Under the pieces are notes generated by a model, which did no database searches, was not told where the DNA came from, and saw nothing but the letters and a program-made list of their open reading frames with translations. Shown here one piece after another: positions 1,793-13,139 of a stretch of DNA of 64,000 nt. The stretch lies in the NCBI GenBank assembly GCA_024637305.1, contig JAGXFI010000079.1:1-64000 (forward strand). Reading direction: 5' to 3'. Positions within the stretch are counted from its first letter, which is position 1. Each line of letters begins with the position of its first letter. A program made the translations under genes and the position numbers. The stretch comes from Sulfitobacter sp. (GTDB taxonomy: Bacteria > Pseudomonadota > Alphaproteobacteria > Rhodobacterales > Rhodobacteraceae).

Positions 1793-3370
1793 TTAGTCGG
1801 AGTAGAGGTATGCGGATTTGGCGATGTCATGCGCCTTGTCCTGCGTGATGCTCAAGAAGCTCGAAAGTGCGCGCGCGTTTTCAGTCTCGCTCGCGCTTTC
1901 GCGCATCCGGTCATAGTTTTCGAATTGCGCGTCGCGGATACGGTCGGATTCAAAAACCATGTCATTGCGGATCGTAGGAAGCAACCGTTCCAACGTTTCC
2001 TGCGATGTCTGCTCTCCTGCGAGGCCGACCCGCATGGCGTGCCCCACCAGATAATCGTCGCTGAACTGGCACTCGATTTCGAGCAGTCGCGTCACTGACC
2101 TGTCAGAGGCAAAATCGTTCAGCAATTCGATATTACCCGGGTCCATGCATACGATAAGCCGATCGGTCTCGAAGTAATCGAAGAGCATCCGCATCAGCGC
2201 CCTGCGGTGACGGGTCCGTTTGCCCAACGTCTTCTGGATACCACCCAGATCAGGCAGCGGCGTTTCCTCTTCGTTGAACAAATACTCGATCGCGGGCACG
2301 TTGGTGGTCTGTCTGATCCGCTCCAGCACCCGTTTGGCCACGTGCCATTTCTTGCAAACGACGATCATCAGTTCCCGTTCGCGGCCAAGCGTGCTTTCCG
2401 TCTCCCAGAACCGTGTTGCGAAACGCCGGCCCATCCGGCCCCGCCCGCTGAGGAACTTGAACAGGCTGCGTCCTTCGTTGCTGATCTGGAACTGCACGCC
2501 TTTCGCGGCATAAAGCAGTCCGAGGCGGCGTTTGAGATCTGCCGCTTCTGCCGAGATTTTGCGCGCAAACAGATAGTCCTGCCCCAGCAGCAGGTCGTAA
2601 TGATCATTGTAGAACGTCACCGGCATCCCGTAATCGGTGAACATCAGAAATGTCAGCGTCCGGTTCTGTATCTCTTGCTCGGGCACCAGATGACGCACGA
2701 GCGTCTGGAAGAAAGTCTCGTCCGGTATCCATGTCGTGCGGAAAAATCGTATCACGTCGCGACGTTCCCTGGTGAAATCCAGGATCCATTCAATCGTCTG
2801 CCGGCGCAGACACCACCATTGGCTTCCGATCTGGACCTGGATATCCGCTGGGATGGATCGTTCCAACCGCAGTTTCCGTTGGAAATTGAACGCCGCGTAA
2901 AATCGTCTTTTCTGCGACCGTTCATTGAAGAAGTGGCGGTAGATGAGCCGCTCCTCCTTCATTCCCGTCTTGATCCAGTCGCTCTCGAAAAAATCGAAAC
3001 TCTCGATGAAATCCGCGTCATTCCTGTTCAGGAAAGCATGCGTATACTCTGCCGATTTGATCGCCATGCAATCACCGGAAAGCATGTAGAAATGCGTCGC
3101 TTTGGGGAATTTTTCAACAGCGGTTTCAATCGCGTATAGGGTCGCTTGCACCAACGACCATTCACCCCAACCACAGCGGATGCGTTTGCGGGCGAAGGTA
3201 ACGTTCGGGTTGTCCTTCAGCGCGCGCTGAATGCTGCGGAACTGGGCGGGATCGGCGGATGCGTCAAAGTGAATAGACATGTAATCGCCAACTGCCGTCA
3301 GCCGTTCTGCCTGCTTGATGACCGCTTCGGGGTCCTTGTGGCAGAGCAATATGTAGGCGATCTTTGCCAT
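1793..3370 (-). CDS. Core-2/I-branching (GT14-like) beta-1,6-N-acetylglucosaminyltransferase with an additional C-terminal domain
   Basis: 'MAKIAYILLCHKDPEAVIKQAERL...ySIHFDASAD...CGWGEWSLVQATLYAIETAVEKFPKATHFYMLSGDCMAIKS'; start chosen at the internal Met (ORF opens at 3484). Confidence 0.8.
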   Translation of the reverse strand: MAKIAYILLCHKDPEAVIKQAERLTAVGDYMSIHFDASADPAQFRSIQRALKDNPNVTFARKRIRCGWGEWSLVQATLYAIETAVEKFPKATHFYMLSGDCMAIKSAEYTHAFLNRNDADFIESFDFFESDWIKTGMKEERLIYRHFFNERSQKRRFYAAFNFQRKLRLERSIPADIQVQIGSQWWCLRRQTIEWILDFTRERRDVIRFFRTTWIPDETFFQTLVRHLVPEQEIQNRTLTFLMFTDYGMPVTFYNDHYDLLLGQDYLFARKISAEAADLKRRLGLLYAAKGVQFQISNEGRSLFKFLSGRGRMGRRFATRFWETESTLGRERELMIVVCKKWHVAKRVLERIRQTTNVPAIEYLFNEEETPLPDLGGIQKTLGKRTRHRRALMRMLFDYFETDRLIVCMDPGNIELLNDFASDRSVTRLLEIECQFSDDYLVGHAMRVGLAGEQTSQETLERLLPTIRNDMVFESDRIRDAQFENYDRMRESASETENARALSSFLSITQDKAHDIAKSAYLYSD

Positions 3371-3515
3371 CTGGGAAACGCTTAGCCTCTTGTCGCTCGA
3401 TTGTTTACCTAGATAATGGTGAAGACTGATTGAATAAACAGGATTTATTTGCTTTTCTCGGTCAAAAGCGATCTGTGACCACATTGCAGGGTCGGGACAG
3501 AGGCAGGAGCGGCGG

Positions 3516-4334
3516 ATGGGTTTTCCCGGAACTTGGATGACGGCAAGCGAAAGCGTGGTCTACCGCGTGGTTCCCAAATGTGCCTGCTCCACCATCGGAC
3601 AGATCATGTATTACTCCGATCACGGTGAATTCTTTGACGGTGACATCCACGATGCCAAGGCTGGGATGCACAAATGGGCGATGGACGACAGTCAGAAACT
3701 CATTGCGTCCAACGTCCAGAACCATACCTCCTACGCCTTTACCTGCGTGCGCAATCCCTACACGCGGATACTGTCGAGCTTTTTTGACAAGATTTGCGGC
3801 ATCCAGCGCAACGGCAAGCGGTATCGTGGCAATCTCGTGCCCTTGCTCATCCAGAAATACGGGATTGATGTAGGCGGAGAGGACGGCAAAGCCGATTTCG
3901 ACCAGATCGCGTCTTTCCGGCGGTTCCTGCTGTTCGCGAGGGACACCATACGCTTTCGCCGTCCAATGGACCCCGATATTCATTGGTCGGCCATGTCGGG
4001 CCATGTCAGCACCTATATCGTCAACGGCGGCACCTATGACAAGATCGTCTGGACGGAAGCGTTCAATGCCGGCATGCAGGATGTGCTGGACGCGATAGAG
4101 ACCCCACACAAGGTCACGCTTGAGGACATACCCCGTTTCAACGAAAGCGAAGGGCACGGCCCAAAGCGCGCGCATCCGGTCGGAGATTATTTCGACGATC
4201 TGTCGATGCATCTGGTCCGTGAAATCTACAAACGCGATTTTGAGGTGTTCAAATATGATCTCGACAACCCGGGCAACAAGCTACCGGTGGGTGAGATCGA
4301 CCTCGAAGAAGTGCACGCGAAACTCGGCGACTAG
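3516..4334 (+). CDS. sulfotransferase family protein
   Basis: 'VVPKCACSTIGQIMYY' PAPS-binding-like motif and 'FTCVRNPYTRILSSFFDKI' 3'-phosphate motif. Confidence 0.82.
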   Translation: MGFPGTWMTASESVVYRVVPKCACSTIGQIMYYSDHGEFFDGDIHDAKAGMHKWAMDDSQKLIASNVQNHTSYAFTCVRNPYTRILSSFFDKICGIQRNGKRYRGNLVPLLIQKYGIDVGGEDGKADFDQIASFRRFLLFARDTIRFRRPMDPDIHWSAMSGHVSTYIVNGGTYDKIVWTEAFNAGMQDVLDAIETPHKVTLEDIPRFNESEGHGPKRAHPVGDYFDDLSMHLVREIYKRDFEVFKYDLDNPGNKLPVGEIDLEEVHAKLGD

Positions 4335-4361: not shown

Positions 4362-4386
4362 GTGACGCATTCCGCTCAGTGGGACA
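4362..4386 (+). repeat. terminal inverted repeat, left
   Basis: Direct comparison with 7305-7329 (reverse complement), 23/25 matches. Confidence 0.88.
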
Positions 4387-4414
4387 CTGACTGGCAGGAT
4401 CTGACCCGATGAGT

Positions 4415-4445
4415 AATGGCCGCGATGGGTTTTGTCGCGGCCATT
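4415..4445. terminator. perfect 11-bp stem hairpin just inside left TIR (terminator-like)
   Basis: AATGGCCGCGA-tgggttttg-TCGCGGCCATT. Confidence 0.6.
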
Positions 4446-4494
4446 TGTTGTGGTGCAGCATATGATTTGCACAAGATGCTGGGCGTTTACAGGA

Positions 4495-6974
4495 TCAGGT
4501 TCCTGTCGCCGTCTGCTCGTCGTCGGACGGTAAGTCGGGCGGAATACCCAAAATCTCGGGAATCGTTGCGACTTCTGGGGTCTGGGTTCTGATTTCCGAC
4601 TGGTCTGTCGATGGGGAATCCGCTTTGCTTGCGGGTGATTTCCATGACCGGTCCAGCTTGGCACCCACTTTCGTGCCGGCATAGAGCACGCGGTATAGAT
4701 CAGGCACATCTTCGCCTCCGCCTTTCCGGAGCTTGCGCGCATCCAGGCCGTGGCGCATTGCTGGCGTGCGCTTTTGCGGCGAACGCCGCGCACGAGGCGA
4801 CATCTGCACAAACTCGTCTGTCCCCGGAATGCGGAGAGCGCGTGGCATCAGCTTTCCCGCCTTTGCGAAGTCGTCGATTTCTTCGTATGGTGGCGTGTAG
4901 ACCCTCGGCTCGAAGAAGTTGTAGTTGATCCGAAAGATGTTGATGATCGAGATCAGCATCGCAGGATTGAAGATTGCACCCTGAACATAGGAACCGCCGA
5001 TCCGTGCGCCCCCGCTGCCAGCTCTGTCCGCCAAGCTGAGGCGCTCTCGAAGCGAGTTCATGAAGGTGCTCGCCGGTTGCAGCGTTGCCTTGTAGATCCA
5101 CTGGGCCAGCTCTTCACGGATCTCGGTGTCGAGATGACCATCTAACGGAATGCGCTTCACCTGCCGACGGAGATACCGTGGCAGGATCGGGAATCCGACA
5201 ACCTTGTCGAGTTCTCCGCTCGCCTGCGTGGGCGCAGACACCCAGAGCTTCGGAAATGACGGGATCTGGTAGTTCGATCCGGAGTATGGGCCGGTGCCAC
5301 GCAGCGCAGGGGCCATATGATCGGCGATGTAGGCTTCCGTGATGGTGCGGGCATCAGTCTCCGGGGAGAAGCGACCGGCATACATGCCGTCGTTGTGGAA
5401 CTGACGGCGCGCCTTCTTGTATGCCTTCACCTTCCCGAGCTTTTCCGGCTTTGTCGTTTTTTTCTTGAACTTCATCGCCAACCAAACGAAGCGGTCTTCG
5501 CGGATCTCCTCTTCGAATATGTGCGGTAGGATATTCGGGAGCGTCGCTTCCTGTTCCGTCGTCAGGACAACCCTTCCCTTTGGAAGCATCTCCTTGAGAA
5601 GAACGAAATGCGCGGCCTTCGTGTAGAAGTCGTCTGTCGTCATTCCCTTGAAGGAGCCGCGTTCGGCCTCCGTGTCGGCAGGAAAGCCGAACCAGTCTTC
5701 GGCGATGACGCGAATATCCTCTTTCATTCCGTTCACGCGGACGGTGAGATCATTCCTGGTCTTGGTGTCGGCCTTTGATTTCTTGGGCATCCGGCGTCGC
5801 GCCCGCACGCGGAAGGCCTCCAACTCATTGACGCACGCCGCGAAGAACTGTGGTTCATGCAGACGCCCGGTTGGCCTCTGCCAAGAGAACTTCGGCGCCG
5901 ATCCGAACTTGCTGCCGGGGTAGCCCTGCGACAGGTTCCGAGGGCCTCCTTGGCCATCGGTGTAGGTTTCGTTAAAGAGATCCAGCGGTTTGACTCGTGG
6001 GTCGAAATCGACATCTAGGCGATAGACATACCCACTCTTCGCGTCCGCCGTGATAGCGCAGTTGAGCTGCGTGTTGCGCTGATCGGTCGCCGTCTCCCAG
6101 TTCACGGTGAGAACCATGTCGTCGTGGCTGAGGCAGTGTTCTATCGGCTGACCGCTGCATTCGATCTTTTCCCGCCAACGGTGGAGCATCTCGCGCTCGT
6201 AGGCCAAGAATACTTCCTCCAACCAAGCAAAGCGATCGTAGATCCGGGAGAAGCCGATCGTCTTGCCGGTGGCGGCTGTGCCCAGCATGCGCTGCATGTC
6301 AGTGATGCCGGCGCTGTTCAACACCGCCCCAAGAATGCGCAGGTTGTCTGCGGTGGTCTTTTGCCCTGCTTGCGGCAGCAAAATCGAGAACCGGGCGCCC
6401 TTCTTTCCCTTGCAGGGCTTGTGCAAGACCCGGACGGCCTTCGGTGTGGCCTTCTTCTTCGTTGCGTTGCCCTTGCTGTCGCGGGTCCGCTGATGTGCGC
6501 CGTTCAGCGAGAACTCGTCCGGAGCGGCAAGAAAGCGCGTGCCACAGGCACCACAGCCGGGACCATCCAGGATGCCATTATGATTCCGAAGCCGCGCGAC
6601 CTCCTCATCGAGATGCGCGGGCGATACGAGGGAGAAGGCGCTATTGCAGACCTTTCCTTCGAAGGTATGCCCCCGGCATCGCACTGTGCGCTGGTCGGCC
6701 CAGACGTGAGGGGCGTGCTGATACTGAAACGCACAACTGACCCGCCGATGCTTCTTATTCGCGCCCGCAAGTTTGTATGCGCCCGGTTCGTGCTTTGCGA
6801 CGATGTCCAGTTGTTCCTCAGTGAAATCAGGTCGTCTCTTCTCCGCACTGCCGAGTCCGTGAGGGGCTGTCCGAAGTTGGAGCAGTCTGGATTCGCGCAG
6901 GTGTTGAGACAATACTTGCCCGCGCCCGGATAGAGCTGGGAGAGCTCGAAGTTGAAAGTAGCCAAACTTGCCAT
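4495..6974 (-). CDS. large DDE-type transposase-like protein with zinc-finger N-terminus; N-terminus and body lie in different frames
   Basis: Body in the 859-aa ORF (4495..7074): Cys pairs 'GPGCGACGTRF', 'DDMVLTVNWETATDQRNTQLNCAITADAKSGYVYRLDVDFDP', 'STFMNSLRERLSLADRAG...NPAMLISIINIFRINYNFFEPRVYTPP'. Likely true N-terminus 'MASLATFNFELSQLYPGAGKYCLNTCANPDCSNFGQPLTDS' is in the overlapping ORF 6504..6974. Confidence 0.7.
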
Positions 6975-7191
6975 TCGGAACCTCGTCTTTCGCGGTTCCG
7001 CCTCGAGTCATTTTCCGACCAAAGAGCAGATTTTCCGCGGGTATAGGAGTCTTACTTTGCGGAAATCTCCGCATGTCGTTCGGAGAGAACGGTCAAGCTT
7101 GCACCACAACAACACTGGCTCTATGATTGAATTCAGAAGCAAAAAGTGCCGGAAAGGCTCTTTTTTTCGTTCAGCAAGCGGCTGCCAGATG

Positions 7192-7215
7192 AGTGCGAGA
7201 CTATTTTCTCGCACT
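7192..7215. repeat. perfect 9-bp inverted repeat upstream of the transposase gene
   Basis: AGTGCGAGA-ctattt-TCTCGCACT. Confidence 0.6.
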
Positions 7216-7267
7216 TGCAGTGCTTGATGCAGTTAAGGCTGCGCTAAAATCTCGCATTAAATCAATA

Positions 7268-7291
7268 GCCTGCCGCGTTTCCGCGACAGGC
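7268..7291. terminator. hairpin just inside right TIR (terminator/attenuator-like)
   Basis: GCCTG-c-CGCG-tttc-CGCG-a-CAGGC. Confidence 0.5.
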
Positions 7292-7304
7292 TTGATCGGG
7301 GCTA

Positions 7305-7329
7305 TGTCCCACAGGGCGGAATGCGTCAC
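7305..7329 (-). repeat. terminal inverted repeat, right
   Basis: Direct comparison with 4362-4386, 23/25 matches. Confidence 0.88.
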
Positions 7330-7346: not shown

Positions 7347-8060
7347 TTAACTGCTACAGAAATTTAGCAAGGCGTCTCGGGCAGGATGGCTTTCTTCCAA
7401 CAGATCCCGCTTGGTTCCGATCAGGGAAATAACGGCCGCCGGCGCGCCCTGAGCGTCCATTACCGGGGCGGAAATGGCATAGAGGCCCGGAATGAATTCG
7501 GCATCAGCCGTGGCGATCCCAGTCCGGCGGATTTCGTCACGAAGCACGGCAAGCATGGTCAAACTGGATCCTTCTGCCGCAACAAGGTCGCCGAGCAGCC
7601 GGTCTGGTAGCCATGCCAGAAATACCCGCCCGGTGGCGGAGCGGGTCACGGGCAGGACTGATCCGACGCCAAGGGTGGTGACGATGCCCGTCGCAGCCTT
7701 TTCCCAACGTACGACTGTTGCACCGTGGGTGCCCCAGACGGCCAGGGTGGCACTTAGGCCGGTCTGTTCTACCAAAGCGGTCAATGCGTCCGCCGCCCGG
7801 TTGACGGGTTCGATCCGGGCCACGGCGCTGATGCCGATTTCGGCGGCGGCAGGGCCCAGATCGTAACGGCCGGTCCCGATCTGGGAAACCATACCTGCCT
7901 CGATGAATGAATGGAGATAACGGTGGGCCTTGCCGCTTGCCATGCCGGTTTCACGTGACAGCTCGCCCAATGTCATCGCGCCTGAATGGCGCGCAAGGGC
8001 GCGGAGCAGCGGGATCGCGACTTCGATCGATTTGACACCTTTGGTACGGGCTTGGGGCAT
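7347..8060 (-). CDS. IclR family transcriptional regulator
   Basis: 'IEVAIPLLRALARHSGAMTLGELSRETGMASGKAHRYLHSFIEAGMV' wHTH and IclR effector domain; divergent from the aromatic operon. Confidence 0.93.
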   Translation of the reverse strand: MPQARTKGVKSIEVAIPLLRALARHSGAMTLGELSRETGMASGKAHRYLHSFIEAGMVSQIGTGRYDLGPAAAEIGISAVARIEPVNRAADALTALVEQTGLSATLAVWGTHGATVVRWEKAATGIVTTLGVGSVLPVTRSATGRVFLAWLPDRLLGDLVAAEGSSLTMLAVLRDEIRRTGIATADAEFIPGLYAISAPVMDAQGAPAAVISLIGTKRDLLEESHPARDALLNFCSS

Positions 8061-8124: not shown

Positions 8125-9249
8125 ATGCGCGTCACCATCTTAGGAGCGGGGCCGGCAGGGCTTTATGCGGCGATTCTGCTGAAGCGGGTCAATCCGCGGG
8201 CGCAGGTTAGCGTGTTTGAACAGAACCCCCATGATGCGACCTTTGGTTTCGGTGTCGTCTTTTCGGATCAGGCACTGGAATTTCTGAGGGCGGACGATCC
8301 TGAAACGGTGGAGCTTGTCACACCGCACATGCAGCGCTGGTCCGACATCGTGGTCAACCATCGCGGCACGTCCATCGCGATCGACGGAATCGGATTTGCC
8401 GGCATCGGGCGGCTGGAGTTGCTGGAATTGTTGCAACAGCGCGCCCGGGCGCTGGGCGCAAACCTGCACTATGGTCACCGCATGGATCACATACCCGAAG
8501 GCGATCTGGTGATCGCGGCGGACGGGTTGAATTCGCTGGTCCGCAGCACTGCGCCGGAGCGCTTTGGCGAAGAGATTACTCATCTGCAGAACCGCTTTGT
8601 CTGGTACGGGGCGGACCGGGAATATGACGCGCTGACGCAAAGTTTTATCGACACGCCGCATGGCCCGATGAATGCGCATCATTACAGTTACGCGCCCGGG
8701 CGCAGCACTTTCATCATCGAGATGGGGCCACAGACCTTTTCCCGCTCAGGTTTCGGCGAGATGTCGGAGCCGACGTATCGCGCGGCGTGCGAGACGCTGT
8801 TTGCCGAACATCTCGACGGCGCATCCTTGATCCCGAACAATTCCGTCTGGCGGCAATTCCCAAATCTGTCCTGCGCCAGATGGCACGATGGCAACCGCGT
8901 TCTGGTTGGCGATGCCCTGCATACAGCGCATTTTTCCATCGGGTCGGGAACAAGGTTGGCTTTGGAGGATGTGCAGGCGCTTGTGGCCGCGCTCCGCGAA
9001 GCGGATTGGAATGTCGAAGTGGCCTTGCCTGCCTATCAGGCCGCACGCGCACCGGTGTTGGCCAAGATCACTGGTGCCGCCAGAGCATCCGCAGACTGGT
9101 ATGAAAGATTCGGGGACCACATGGCGCTGGAGCCTTGGCCTTTCGCGCTCAGCTACATCCGGCGGGCAGGGCGGTTGAGCGCGGAGCGGCTTGCCGCGCT
9201 GGCCCCTGACTTTACCACGCAACTCCGCATTCAAGGGGTGGGTTTATGA
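8125..9249 (+). CDS. FAD-dependent aromatic monooxygenase, salicylyl-CoA 5-hydroxylase-like (hydroxylase domain only)
   Basis: 'MRVTILGAGPAGLYAAILLKRVNP' Rossmann fold, 'VLVGDALHTAHFSIGSGTRLALEDVQAL' FAD motif; operon context. Confidence 0.8.
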   Translation: MRVTILGAGPAGLYAAILLKRVNPRAQVSVFEQNPHDATFGFGVVFSDQALEFLRADDPETVELVTPHMQRWSDIVVNHRGTSIAIDGIGFAGIGRLELLELLQQRARALGANLHYGHRMDHIPEGDLVIAADGLNSLVRSTAPERFGEEITHLQNRFVWYGADREYDALTQSFIDTPHGPMNAHHYSYAPGRSTFIIEMGPQTFSRSGFGEMSEPTYRAACETLFAEHLDGASLIPNNSVWRQFPNLSCARWHDGNRVLVGDALHTAHFSIGSGTRLALEDVQALVAALREADWNVEVALPAYQAARAPVLAKITGAARASADWYERFGDHMALEPWPFALSYIRRAGRLSAERLAALAPDFTTQLRIQGVGL

Positions 9250-10760
9250 CCCCGATTGATCTGGCCGCTTCCGTTGGTTTCGACCTGCCGGAGCAATACA
9301 ATGCCTCGCGCCTGCTATGGGACAATCTGGCCGATCGGGCCGACCGGCCTGCCATCTTGCATGACAAGGGGGCCTGGACCTATCGTGACCTGATCGCCGA
9401 AGCGGGACGGATCGGGAATTACCTGTTGGCAAGCGGATGTGCTCCGGGCGATCGGGTGATGCTGTATCTGGAGGACGAGCCGGCCTATCCGGCCGCCATC
9501 ATGGGAGCGATGCGCGCCGGGCTGGTGCCGATGCTCATCAACACGCTGAGTACTGACGAGCTGATCCGTTATTATCTGCAAGACAGCGGTGCCAAGGCGG
9601 TCATTGTCAGCACGGCCTTCAAGGACCAGTTCGACGTGCCGGTGATCATCGCAGGCGATTCCCCGTGGCAGGAAACCCCGTCCGAATTGACCGAATACCC
9701 GACGCGGCGGCGCGATATGGCGTTCTGGATGTATTCGTCCGGTTCCACCGGCAAGCCCAAGGGCGTGGTGCACAAGCATGAAGATGCCGCCTATACTGCG
9801 CATACCTATGCGCGCGATATTCTGAAGATCGGACCCGGGGATGTGTGTTTCTCGATCCCCAAGATTTTCTTTGCCTACGGGTTCGGCAATGCCGTCACCT
9901 TCCCAATGGCCGTCGGCGCGGCGTCTGTTTTGCTGTCCGAAAGACCCACCCCCGCGCGGTGTTTTGACCAAATAGACAATCACCGGCCCACCCTCCTTTT
10001 TGGGTTGCCTACCTTGTATACGGCGCTGTCGAATGACGCGGGGATCGACGCGGTCGATATGTCGTCGGTGAGGCTGTGCCTTTCAGCCGCCGAGGTGCTC
10101 TCAACGGAGCTGGCGCGCAGTTGGCATGAGCGGTTCGGCCTGCACATCATCGAAGGGTTGGGCTCTACCGAGATGCTGCACATCTACCTCAGCAATGACG
10201 ATGCTCTGCAAAAGCCGGGGTCGGCGGGTCGTGTCGTGGCCGGTTACAGCATCCGGCTGATGACACCGGAAGGGCGCGAGGCCAGAACCGGCGAAGAGGG
10301 TGTGATGCAGGTAATGGGTCTGTCGGGTGCTGAATACTACTGGAACAGGCCCGACAAAACCGCTGAGACGATGCGGGAAGGTTGGCTGGACACCGGCGAC
10401 CGGTTTACGCGGGATGCGGACGGGTTTTATTTCTTCAAGGGGCGCGCGGACGATCTGGTGAAGGTGTCGGGTCAGTGGGTCTATCCGCTTGAGATCGAAT
10501 GGGCGCTGAATGACCATGCACAGGTGCGCGAATCCTGCGTTCTTGCGTTGCCGATGGCTGACGGGCGTATGACGATCAAGGCTTGGGTTTCGGCGGTCGA
10601 GCCGTCAGAGACGCTTCGTGCCGCACTTGTCGCCCACGCCAAGGCGCGGTTGCTCCCCCATAAATATCCGCGCATCATCGAGTTTATTGATACCTTGCCC
10701 AAGACAGGAACTGACAAGATCGACAGACAGGCGCTTCGCGCCCGAGAGGAGACGATATGA
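9246..10760 (+). CDS. benzoate/salicylate-CoA ligase family protein (AMP-forming)
   Basis: AMP-binding motif 'YSSGSTGKPKGVVHKHED', 'GLGSTEMLHIYLSN', 'WLDTGDRF'; benzoate-CoA ligase-like. Confidence 0.88.
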   Translation: MTPIDLAASVGFDLPEQYNASRLLWDNLADRADRPAILHDKGAWTYRDLIAEAGRIGNYLLASGCAPGDRVMLYLEDEPAYPAAIMGAMRAGLVPMLINTLSTDELIRYYLQDSGAKAVIVSTAFKDQFDVPVIIAGDSPWQETPSELTEYPTRRRDMAFWMYSSGSTGKPKGVVHKHEDAAYTAHTYARDILKIGPGDVCFSIPKIFFAYGFGNAVTFPMAVGAASVLLSERPTPARCFDQIDNHRPTLLFGLPTLYTALSNDAGIDAVDMSSVRLCLSAAEVLSTELARSWHERFGLHIIEGLGSTEMLHIYLSNDDALQKPGSAGRVVAGYSIRLMTPEGREARTGEEGVMQVMGLSGAEYYWNRPDKTAETMREGWLDTGDRFTRDADGFYFFKGRADDLVKVSGQWVYPLEIEWALNDHAQVRESCVLALPMADGRMTIKAWVSAVEPSETLRAALVAHAKARLLPHKYPRIIEFIDTLPKTGTDKIDRQALRAREETI

Positions 10761-11803
10761 GCCAGGCCGCGCCCCCCAATACGCCAGAGCGCGAGGCGTT
10801 CTATGATGCGATCGAACCGGAATCCATGCGCGCCTTGTGGTCCGTCATGGCTGGCATCATTACCCCCGAACCAAAATCGGGATGCGTGCCCTACAAGTGG
10901 TCCTACGACAGCGTCCGGTCCCGGCTGATCGAGGCGGCGGGATTGATTACCGCCAAGGAAGCTGAGCGGCGGGTGCTTATTCTGGAGAACCCCGGCTTGA
11001 AGGGGTCGTCCAAAGTGACAACCAGCCTTTATTGCGGTGTGCAATGTGTGATGCCCGGCGAGGTGGCACCGGCGCACCGGCATACACAGTCGGCGTTGCG
11101 TTTCGTCTTGGAAAGCAGCGGCGGATTCACGGCAGTCGGTGGTGAAAAGACCGAGATGCAGTTCGGCGATTTCGTCATCACGCCCAACTGGGAATGGCAC
11201 GATCACGGCAACACGACGGACGAACCCATATTCTGGCTGGATGGATTGGATATTCCAGTCGTGCAATTCTTCGATGCCAGTTTCGCCGAAGGCTATGGCG
11301 AGGACCAGCAACCGATCACGCGGCCCCAGAATGACAGCGCGGCACGCTACGGGGCCAACATGATGCCCCTGGGATACGAGCGCGCCAAGCCCGCTTCGCC
11401 GATCTTCAATTACCCCTATGCACGGTCGCGCGACGCGCTAGAGCAGATGCGGCGAACCGAGGAATGGGATCCCTGTCACGGGTTGAAGATGCGCTATATC
11501 AATCCGGTGAACGGGGACTGGGCGATGCCGACGATCGGGACCTGCCTGCAGCTTTTGCCCAAAGGGTTCAGCGGCGCGCAGACAAGATCCACGGACGCCA
11601 CGGTCTATGTCGGCGTCGAGGGAAAAGTCCGCGCGCACATCCGCGGCCAGATCATCGAGTTCGGTCCGCGCGATGTTTTCGTCGTACCAAGCTGGCATGA
11701 GTTGAAACTGGAAGCGGAGGAGGACACCGTCCTGTTTTCCTATTCCGACAGACCAATACAGGAAAAGCTGGGTCTTTTCCGCGAACAAAGAGGCAATCAA
11801 TGA
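10757..11803 (+). CDS. gentisate 1,2-dioxygenase (bicupin)
   Basis: 'GEVAPAHRHTQSALRFVLESSGGFTAVGGEKTEMQFGDFVITPNWEWHDHGN' cupin metal motif, size and context. Confidence 0.92.
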   Translation: MSQAAPPNTPEREAFYDAIEPESMRALWSVMAGIITPEPKSGCVPYKWSYDSVRSRLIEAAGLITAKEAERRVLILENPGLKGSSKVTTSLYCGVQCVMPGEVAPAHRHTQSALRFVLESSGGFTAVGGEKTEMQFGDFVITPNWEWHDHGNTTDEPIFWLDGLDIPVVQFFDASFAEGYGEDQQPITRPQNDSAARYGANMMPLGYERAKPASPIFNYPYARSRDALEQMRRTEEWDPCHGLKMRYINPVNGDWAMPTIGTCLQLLPKGFSGAQTRSTDATVYVGVEGKVRAHIRGQIIEFGPRDVFVVPSWHELKLEAEEDTVLFSYSDRPIQEKLGLFREQRGNQ

Positions 11804-12495
11804 GCTACGTATTCGACGCACCACAACAGGCCAGTCTGGCCGTCAAAGGCACTCAGGACAGGTTTCCGATCCGGCGTATTTTCTGCGTGGGCCGCAACTA
11901 CGAGGCGCATGCGCGCGAGATGGGCAAGGACCCGACCCGTGAGGCACCGTTCTTTTTCACCAAGCCTGCCGATGCTGCTTTGGACACACCCTGCACCGTC
12001 GCTTATCCCAAGCTTACGGAAAACCTGCATTTCGAGGTCGAACTTGTCATCGCCATTGGCAAGGGCGGATCGGAGATAGCCGAAGCGGATGTGATGGACT
12101 ACATCTGGGGCGCTTCCGTGGGATTGGACCTGACGCGCCGTGACTTGCAGCAGGAAGCCAAGGACATGGGCCGCCCTTGGGATTGGGGCAAGGCGTTCGA
12201 CCAGTCAGCGCCCATCGCGCCCATCGTCCCGATTGCCGAGGTGCCAAGCGTCGAGTCCGCCCGGATCTGGCTGGCGGTGAACGGTGAGGTCAAACAGGAC
12301 GCTGACATTGCAGATCTCATCTGGTCCGTGCGCGAGCATGTGTCGATCCTGAGCCATTCAATGACGTTGGCACCCGGCGACATCGTGATGACCGGCACAC
12401 CCGCCGGTGTCGGTGCTATCGTCGCCGGGGACGTGATTACTGGCGGTGTTGACGGTGTTGGAACGTTCGAGGTCACGATCGGGCCGCGGGCGTGA
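11800..12495 (+). CDS. fumarylacetoacetate hydrolase family protein, probable fumarylpyruvate hydrolase
   Basis: 'IFCVGRNYEAHAREMGKDP..PFFFTKPADA...HFEVELVIAIGK', context. Confidence 0.9.
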   Translation: MSYVFDAPQQASLAVKGTQDRFPIRRIFCVGRNYEAHAREMGKDPTREAPFFFTKPADAALDTPCTVAYPKLTENLHFEVELVIAIGKGGSEIAEADVMDYIWGASVGLDLTRRDLQQEAKDMGRPWDWGKAFDQSAPIAPIVPIAEVPSVESARIWLAVNGEVKQDADIADLIWSVREHVSILSHSMTLAPGDIVMTGTPAGVGAIVAGDVITGGVDGVGTFEVTIGPRA

Positions 12496-13139
12496 GCGAC
12501 TTCGGGCTGTACAGCTATTTCCGGTCGTCAACATCGGTGCGCGTGCGGGCGGCGTTGAACCTCAAGGGGCCGTCCTACGACTATTTCCCGCTATCCCTAC
12601 TCAAGGGCGAGCAGGCGAGCGCGGAGCATCTGGCACTGAACCCGCAAGGGTTGGTGCCGACGCTGGTGACCGCCGAAGGGGCATTGCCACAAAGTCTGGC
12701 GATCATCGAATGGCTGGATGAGGTGTATCCCGAACCGCCGCTCCTGCCGGCGGATGCGTGGGGCCGTGCGCGGGTACGAAGCCTTGCGCATATCATTGCG
12801 CTTGATGTGCATCCGGTAAACAACCTGCGCATTCTCAAACATCTGGAAACCGAATACGGGGTGGATCAGGACGGCAAGGCCGCGTGGTTTGCCAAATGGT
12901 CGCGTGCCGGGATGCAGGCACTGGAGGCGCGGCTGACCGGGGAGCCCGAGACCGGACAGTTCTGCCACGGGGATACGGTCGGGCTGGCCGATCTGTGTCT
13001 TTATGCCCAGGTTCTGAACAACGGTCGATTTGGCGTGACGGTGGATGATTATCCGACCATCGCGCGTATCCATGAGGCTTGCATGGCGATTCCAGCGCTC
13101 GAATCCGCAATTCCCGCCAATCAACCGGATGCCGACTAG
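12492..13139 (+). CDS. maleylpyruvate/maleylacetoacetate isomerase (GST family)
   Basis: 'LYSYFRSSTSVRVRAALNLKG' and 'NPQGLVPTLV' zeta-GST motifs; end of gentisate operon. Confidence 0.92.
   Translation: MSDFGLYSYFRSSTSVRVRAALNLKGPSYDYFPLSLLKGEQASAEHLALNPQGLVPTLVTAEGALPQSLAIIEWLDEVYPEPPLLPADAWGRARVRSLAHIIALDVHPVNNLRILKHLETEYGVDQDGKAAWFAKWSRAGMQALEARLTGEPETGQFCHGDTVGLADLCLYAQVLNNGRFGVTVDDYPTIARIHEACMAIPALESAIPANQPDAD

Follow-up and report, generated by a model that had tools for sequence, protein, structure and literature searches.

Between positions 4362 and 7329 of the window, by which we mean the whole 64,000-nt stretch of DNA that was analysed, a pair of inverted repeats encloses a single gene for a very large protein. 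Is this segment a mobile element, to which family does it belong, and where do elements of its kind insert? We conclude, with a probability of roughly 0.82, that the window holds a degraded element without cargo, and that it belongs to a family of DDE-type transposons with a single transposase that insert into the loops of transcription terminators with 9-bp target duplications.

The window element and its gene

The 25-bp terminal inverted repeats described in the earlier note, which was made from the letters alone, were recovered by a repeat search (92% complementary, i.e. 23/25, with 2918 nt between the arms). Their shared core occurs at exactly two sites in the 64-kb window, against 0.06 expected by chance, and the copy has the ends of its family, i.e. 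terminal repeats with the core TGACGCATTCCG...GGGACA. The repeats had been said to bracket one large minus-strand gene exactly; one gene is indeed bracketed, but the target duplications of relatives place the true outer ends one base inward of the repeats. The element and its immediate surroundings comprise the following:

3516-4334, plus strand: flanking gene of the sulfotransferase family, 3' end towards the element (ORF list, flank annotation)
4362-4386, plus strand: terminal inverted repeat adjoining the 3' end of the gene (repeat search; same core in relatives)
4363-7328, minus strand: transposon of about 2.97 kb with the transposase gene only and no cargo, ends TGACGC...GCGTCA, limits set by the duplication boundaries of relatives
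7305-7329, minus strand: terminal inverted repeat adjoining the 5' end of the gene (repeat search; same core in relatives)
7347-8060, minus strand: flanking gene for an IclR-type regulator, 3' end towards the element (ORF list, flank annotation)

The copy thus lies between two convergent gene ends, as expected of a terminator site. We looked for a target duplication flanking it and for a hairpin across its junction and found neither, so that a terminator insertion of this particular copy is not demonstrated. Multiple identical copies, which the earlier note had named as confirmation of mobility, are absent from its own genome: the element is single-copy there, and candidates for further copies or solo ends were rejected as chance 12-mer matches to the ends. 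It is probably inactive, having lost both its target duplication and its reading frame. Adjoining the IclR gene, positions 8125-13139 hold a likely aromatic-acid catabolic cluster (FAD hydroxylase, AMP-binding ligase, cupin, FAA hydrolase and a GST-like protein; a gentisate-type pathway by inference), and positions 1793-3484 encode a glycosyltransferase-like protein (Branch domain) fused to DUF5928.

The longest minus-strand ORF between the repeats (4495-7074) spans 859 codons, from which a protein of more than 800 aa had been claimed. The transposase is unusually large, at about 800 aa, but the first ~74 aa of this ORF are in the wrong frame and form a spurious N-terminus; the true start, MASLATFNFELSQLYPGAGKYCLNTCANPDC (MASLATFNF...CLNTCANPDC), lies in another frame, in the ORF at 6504-6974. 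A profile of the relatives matches the window in two frames, at 6971-6834 (profile positions 2-48) and at 6846-4648 (positions 51-788), and the gene is therefore broken by one frame change near 6840. Programmed frameshifting as in IS1 was considered and rejected, since in L005 and L006, two relatives whose genes are intact, a single frame runs through this region. The window protein is 69% identical to those of L005 and L040 and, save for the one frame change, homologous to the latter. Its parts map as follows:

4495-6846, minus strand: main open frame of the transposase, covering the bulk of the protein with its predicted catalytic core (ORF list; profile positions 51-788)
6834-6974, minus strand: N-terminal part in the other frame, start MASLATFNF (profile positions 2-48; intact in L005 and L006)
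6882-6911, minus strand: cysteine cluster 1 (CLNTCANPDC), a putative zinc ribbon; of 25 relatives nearly all conserve it
6646-6681, minus strand: cysteine cluster 2 (C..C), neighbour of cluster 3, with conserved cysteines in the alignment
6541-6555, minus strand: cysteine cluster 3 (CGACG), with conserved cysteines in the alignment of 25 relatives
6406-6423, minus strand: HKPCKG, neighbour of cysteine cluster 3

Relatives of the transposase and the question of IS1

Scanning one genome per species, we found 53 loci encoding relatives, nearly all in Rhodobacteraceae and one in Salinarimonas. Within the bacterial family of the window 22 of the 397 sampled genomes have a match, and many copies are broken; all such counts suffer from draft assemblies, from contigs that break off and from loci where the element ends are not clear. 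No relatives were found in phage or viral contigs, and searches of plasmids for the 800-aa protein gave at most one remote match. The contigs L060 and L061 are each taken up almost entirely by one element, end to end, as expected if multiple copies had collapsed in assembly.

The earlier note had been unable to place the protein in a named IS family, and the standard libraries likewise leave it unclassified: neither for the window protein nor for its 800-aa relatives did any Pfam or NCBIfam model give a meaningful score, and the same holds for PDB sequences. Neither this family nor its rule of inserting at terminators was found described in the open-access literature; the search did not extend to ISfinder or to most subscription papers, and the family, though little described, may carry a name elsewhere. 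When 25 relatives, mostly full-length, were aligned, cysteines and acids proved invariant or nearly so, among them cysteines of the Cys-rich N-terminal segments reported previously.

Profile searches also recovered proteins of about 600 aa outside the 800-aa family, and the two branches are homologous (probability 100, E=4.6e-49, 542 aligned columns). Across both, transposases measure 600-860 aa and elements 1.8 to 13.2 kb. This sister branch raises the possibility that the whole family is a divergent branch of the IS1 family (NCBIfam NF033558), with which it shares a likely DDE enzyme and a 9-bp target duplication (on the IS1 side from general knowledge; on this side seen in relatives and absent from the window copy). 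The N-terminal zinc ribbon and HTH of the 600-aa proteins, the only region in which similarity to IS1 is seen, resemble those of IS1, matching the NCBIfam model with E=1e-7 to 1.6e-11, and the branch aligns with the IS1 profile at a probability of 96.7 (E=4e-10, 137 columns); however, the scores of 32-45 bits stay below the curated IS1 cut-off of 100, and IS1 models find nothing significant in the 800-aa branch, which reaches a probability of just 50 against the IS1 profile. The IS1 transposase has about 230 aa, in an element of about 0.8 kb without cargo, whereas the present proteins are 3-4 times larger and their elements carry cargo and target terminator loops; to our knowledge, no terminator targeting has been described for IS1. 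We therefore regard membership of the IS1 family as unlikely, while keeping it as a serious candidate.

An RNase H fold bears on the DDE-like core that had been proposed, and here the support is weak. AlphaFold models were fair (pLDDT 79.7 with pTM 0.83, and 83.5), and their top PDB fold matches are mostly RNase H-like, including the transposases ISCth4, Mu, Tn5, Hermes and TnsB as well as NurA, EndoV and Argonaute. Their E values are at least 0.015, no PDB fold match had E<0.001, and folding the core alone brought no improvement. From this weak match, together with three conserved acids (D289, E478 and E593), we infer an RNase H-like DDE chemistry, for which the candidate residues are:

6121-6123, minus strand: putative first catalytic Asp, in an HDD motif (D289 of L040), invariant in 25 relatives; D254 is invariant in the 600-aa branch
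5554-5556, minus strand: putative second catalytic acid, Glu (E478 of the conserved acids), aligned with Asp in the 600-aa branch
5212-5214, minus strand: candidate third catalytic Glu (E593 of L040), invariant in 25 relatives and aligned with E506 of the 600-aa branch; assignment inferred

The third acid is uncertain because the position of the IS1-type third acid (Glu) is Ser in the 800-aa branch; in the 600-aa branch it is mostly Asp.

Ends, target duplications and insertion sites

Both ends could be located for 35 elements. Across elements they share a conserved sequence (TGACGCATTCCG...GGACA), and together the 70 yield the consensus TGACGCATTCCGnnnnnTnGGACA, a terminal inverted repeat of about 24 bp; elements that seemed to lack a right end have it further out, past the cargo. 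Exact 9-bp direct repeats lie outside the ends in 26 of the 35 elements, and we read the duplications of L049 and L057 as 10 bp and that of L047 as 9 bp with a one-base shift. An initial reading as a 7-bp duplication with C/G outer bases was dropped; most elements suit a length of 9 bp with ends of the form TG...CA, and a few one of 10 bp.

Removal of the element and one repeat restores the site, which at L040 (AAAAAGGCCGG-GCACCCGGC-CCGGCCTTTT) and at L056 (CAGAGGCCCCCGTC-GAGCGATCG-GCGGGGGTTTTT) is an intrinsic terminator with the repeat at the loop. Stems of at least 8 bp, centred no more than 2 nt from the duplication centre, were found at 25 of 33 exact-duplication sites (sister-branch sites included) as against 5.3% of positions drawn at random from these loci (binomial about 1e-25); the other eight sites do not show a centred stem. 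G-T pairs and one mismatch were permitted equally in sites and controls, and this test replaced a crude folding energy, which is too weak as sole target test in GC-rich DNA. An A4 or T4 tract flanks 32 of the 33 sites. Judged from the restored sequences, the target of the family is the loop of an intrinsic terminator hairpin; a 9-bp duplication in such a loop is found in most relatives and not in the window copy.

On the reading that we favour, the ~800-aa zinc-ribbon protein recognises the terminal inverted repeats and brings the element, whether or not it holds passenger genes, to an intrinsic (Rho-independent) terminator, where it is inserted in the hairpin loop. The putative DDE enzyme would cut its target with a 9-nt stagger, symmetric about the dyad axis of the palindrome, which is perhaps extruded as a hairpin, so that 9 bp, and sometimes 10, would be duplicated. 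Because the duplicated 9-mers share no evident sequence, we infer that the target may be recognised by its dyad shape (a palindrome or extruded hairpin with A/T tracts) and not by its sequence.

It is doubtful, but cannot be set aside, that insertion is instead coupled to transcription termination, with a paused RNA polymerase, the RNA hairpin or supercoiling guiding the transposase in place of a DNA hairpin. Such coupling would suit the resemblance of all strong sites to functional terminators with A/T tracts, and the location of many sites (16 of 26 by crude ORF calls) near the 3' ends of genes; yet it sits poorly with the lack of any orientation preference relative to the tract (a T tract on one side only at 11 sites, an A tract on the other side only at 11, both at 10) and with the centring of the duplication on the dyad axis, which fits symmetric recognition of DNA. 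Far less probable is untargeted insertion, with terminators merely tolerating the elements. Insertions between genes do less harm than those within them, but a centred stem of at least 8 bp occurs at only 6.9% of ordinary intergenic positions, and tolerance alone does not predict duplications centred to within 2 nt.

Targeted insertion into terminator loops is accompanied by evidence of movement. A 13.2-kb element (L045, L050 and L059) occupies three different terminators in the genomes of three Aliiroseovarius species, and the L045 genome, from a second Aliiroseovarius in which the element lies at another place, has an intact terminator at the site used in L059. Among the dfrG elements considered below, the site of L122 is empty in two plasmids (joined flanks 280/280 identical, with one copy of the 9-mer) and the joined flanks of L121 are 99.3% identical over 280 bp to an element-free plasmid. 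The empty sites that the earlier note had suggested looking for thus exist for relatives; that of the window element itself could not be identified in congeners, whose flanks are too diverged. On comparative grounds, conserved ends, 9-bp duplications, empty sites, terminator-loop targets and cargo by one end are shown in the relatives, and the call of an IS-like mobile element stands; a conserved locus without repeats, which would have refuted it, is not what we see, the relatives being scattered over unrelated loci, where the same terminal repeats enclose them. That the gene is a domesticated one of the host, and its inverted repeats a product of chance, would be compatible with the single copy in its genome; it is refuted by these ends, duplications and empty sites, by the absence of a conserved locus, by the presence of the gene in only 3 of 60 close relatives and by its broken frame in the window.

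Known systems, cargo and the dfrG element

Other elements are known to use comparable sites. Group IIC introns also insert at terminators but are retroelements, without inverted repeats or a transposase. IS1272 and TnSha1 (IS1182 family) target hairpins, several of them transcription terminators confirmed by RNA-seq, and a passenger gene, sh-fabI, is carried (PMC4923244). They resemble the new family in combining a terminator hairpin as target with a passenger gene; however, their insertion entails a blunt-end deletion of the stem-loop (part of the stem) without target duplication (PMC4923244), whereas here we observe a 9-bp duplication centred on the loop, exact empty sites and no deletion. 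IS1182-type models matched none of the transposases of the new family. REP-targeting ISs (PMC1525189) and IS110/IS1111 (PMC11187229) likewise insert at specific intergenic sites, sometimes in palindromic repeats, but these rely on defined sequences, or on DEDD enzymes with guide RNAs, whereas the target sequence of the new family varies freely.

More broadly, the elements may form a cross-phylum DDE superfamily in which the transposase itself reads DNA secondary structure, namely the terminator hairpin in palindromic or extruded form, and in which cargo such as phage-defence and antibiotic-resistance genes has a universal safe harbour in terminators; on this we find ourselves evenly divided. 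In most bacteria genes are followed by terminators, whose sequences vary, and therefore an enzyme that finds them by shape would have safe landing sites in almost any host; if true, this would help explain the cross-phylum spread and the varied cargo. Hairpin recognition by a DDE transposase becomes a testable mechanistic question, and the family suggests an insertion tool that avoids genes.

Cargo is frequent in intact relatives and includes efflux pumps and phage-defence systems, and a distant relative in Gram-positive bacteria carries dfrG; the cargo sits between the transposase gene and the far end of the element. An RND efflux operon is carried by L034 (10.9 kb), and the 13.2-kb Aliiroseovarius element contains a metabolic operon with a betaine-type transporter and acyl-CoA enzymes. 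Genes for phage defence are present in several elements: L039 (9.8 kb) has type I restriction-modification, L037 (9.2 kb) a type IIG MmeI-like enzyme together with a DEAD helicase and a T5orf172 protein, L057 and L079 CBASS genes (phospholipase effector, cyclase and E2-like protein in the former, cyclase and SAVED protein in the latter), L047 a GmrSD_N-type protein with HEPN, L044 a HEPN-like protein that scores below the Pfam cut-off, and L036 Schlafen/AlbA_2. Defence systems of marine Rhodobacteraceae thereby gain a new carrier.

When plasmids were searched by tblastn with a 600-aa protein, 132 records were returned, mostly from Enterococcus and Staphylococcus, and among the records listed the annotation is mostly 'hypothetical protein'. 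The dfrG element, which belongs to the 600-aa sister branch, measures 3265-3276 bp and encodes a 'hypothetical' transposase of ~650 aa in Gram-positive plasmids (L114, 7331-10596; L117-L124; records include NZ_OL689185.1, NZ_CP014373.1 and NZ_CP014535.1). Seven different insertion sites, each resembling a terminator, were read in S. aureus, E. faecium, E. faecalis, Listeria innocua and Lactococcus; the duplications are of 9 bp, in one case of 10 bp. The gene dfrG has been attributed in one paper to IS257 or to a unit with IS256 (PMC4923244); trimethoprim resistance of this type now gains a concrete vehicle. A P. aeruginosa plasmid (CP136985.1, 5953-7963; L113) carries a cargo-less element of the 600-aa branch, 2010 bp long, with perfect ends (CAAGCCGTT...) and a 9-bp duplication at a terminator. 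The same plasmid also has a blaGES-1 integron, and a Marinobacter element (L126) is similar to that of L113. Clear ends or duplications were not seen at the 600-aa loci L104-L106, L108, L112, L115, L125 and L127, which may be decayed or have untypical ends. Directly 5' of the transposase gene of the dfrG element in L114 lies an ORF of 98 aa (7509-7805; WP_002311824.1).
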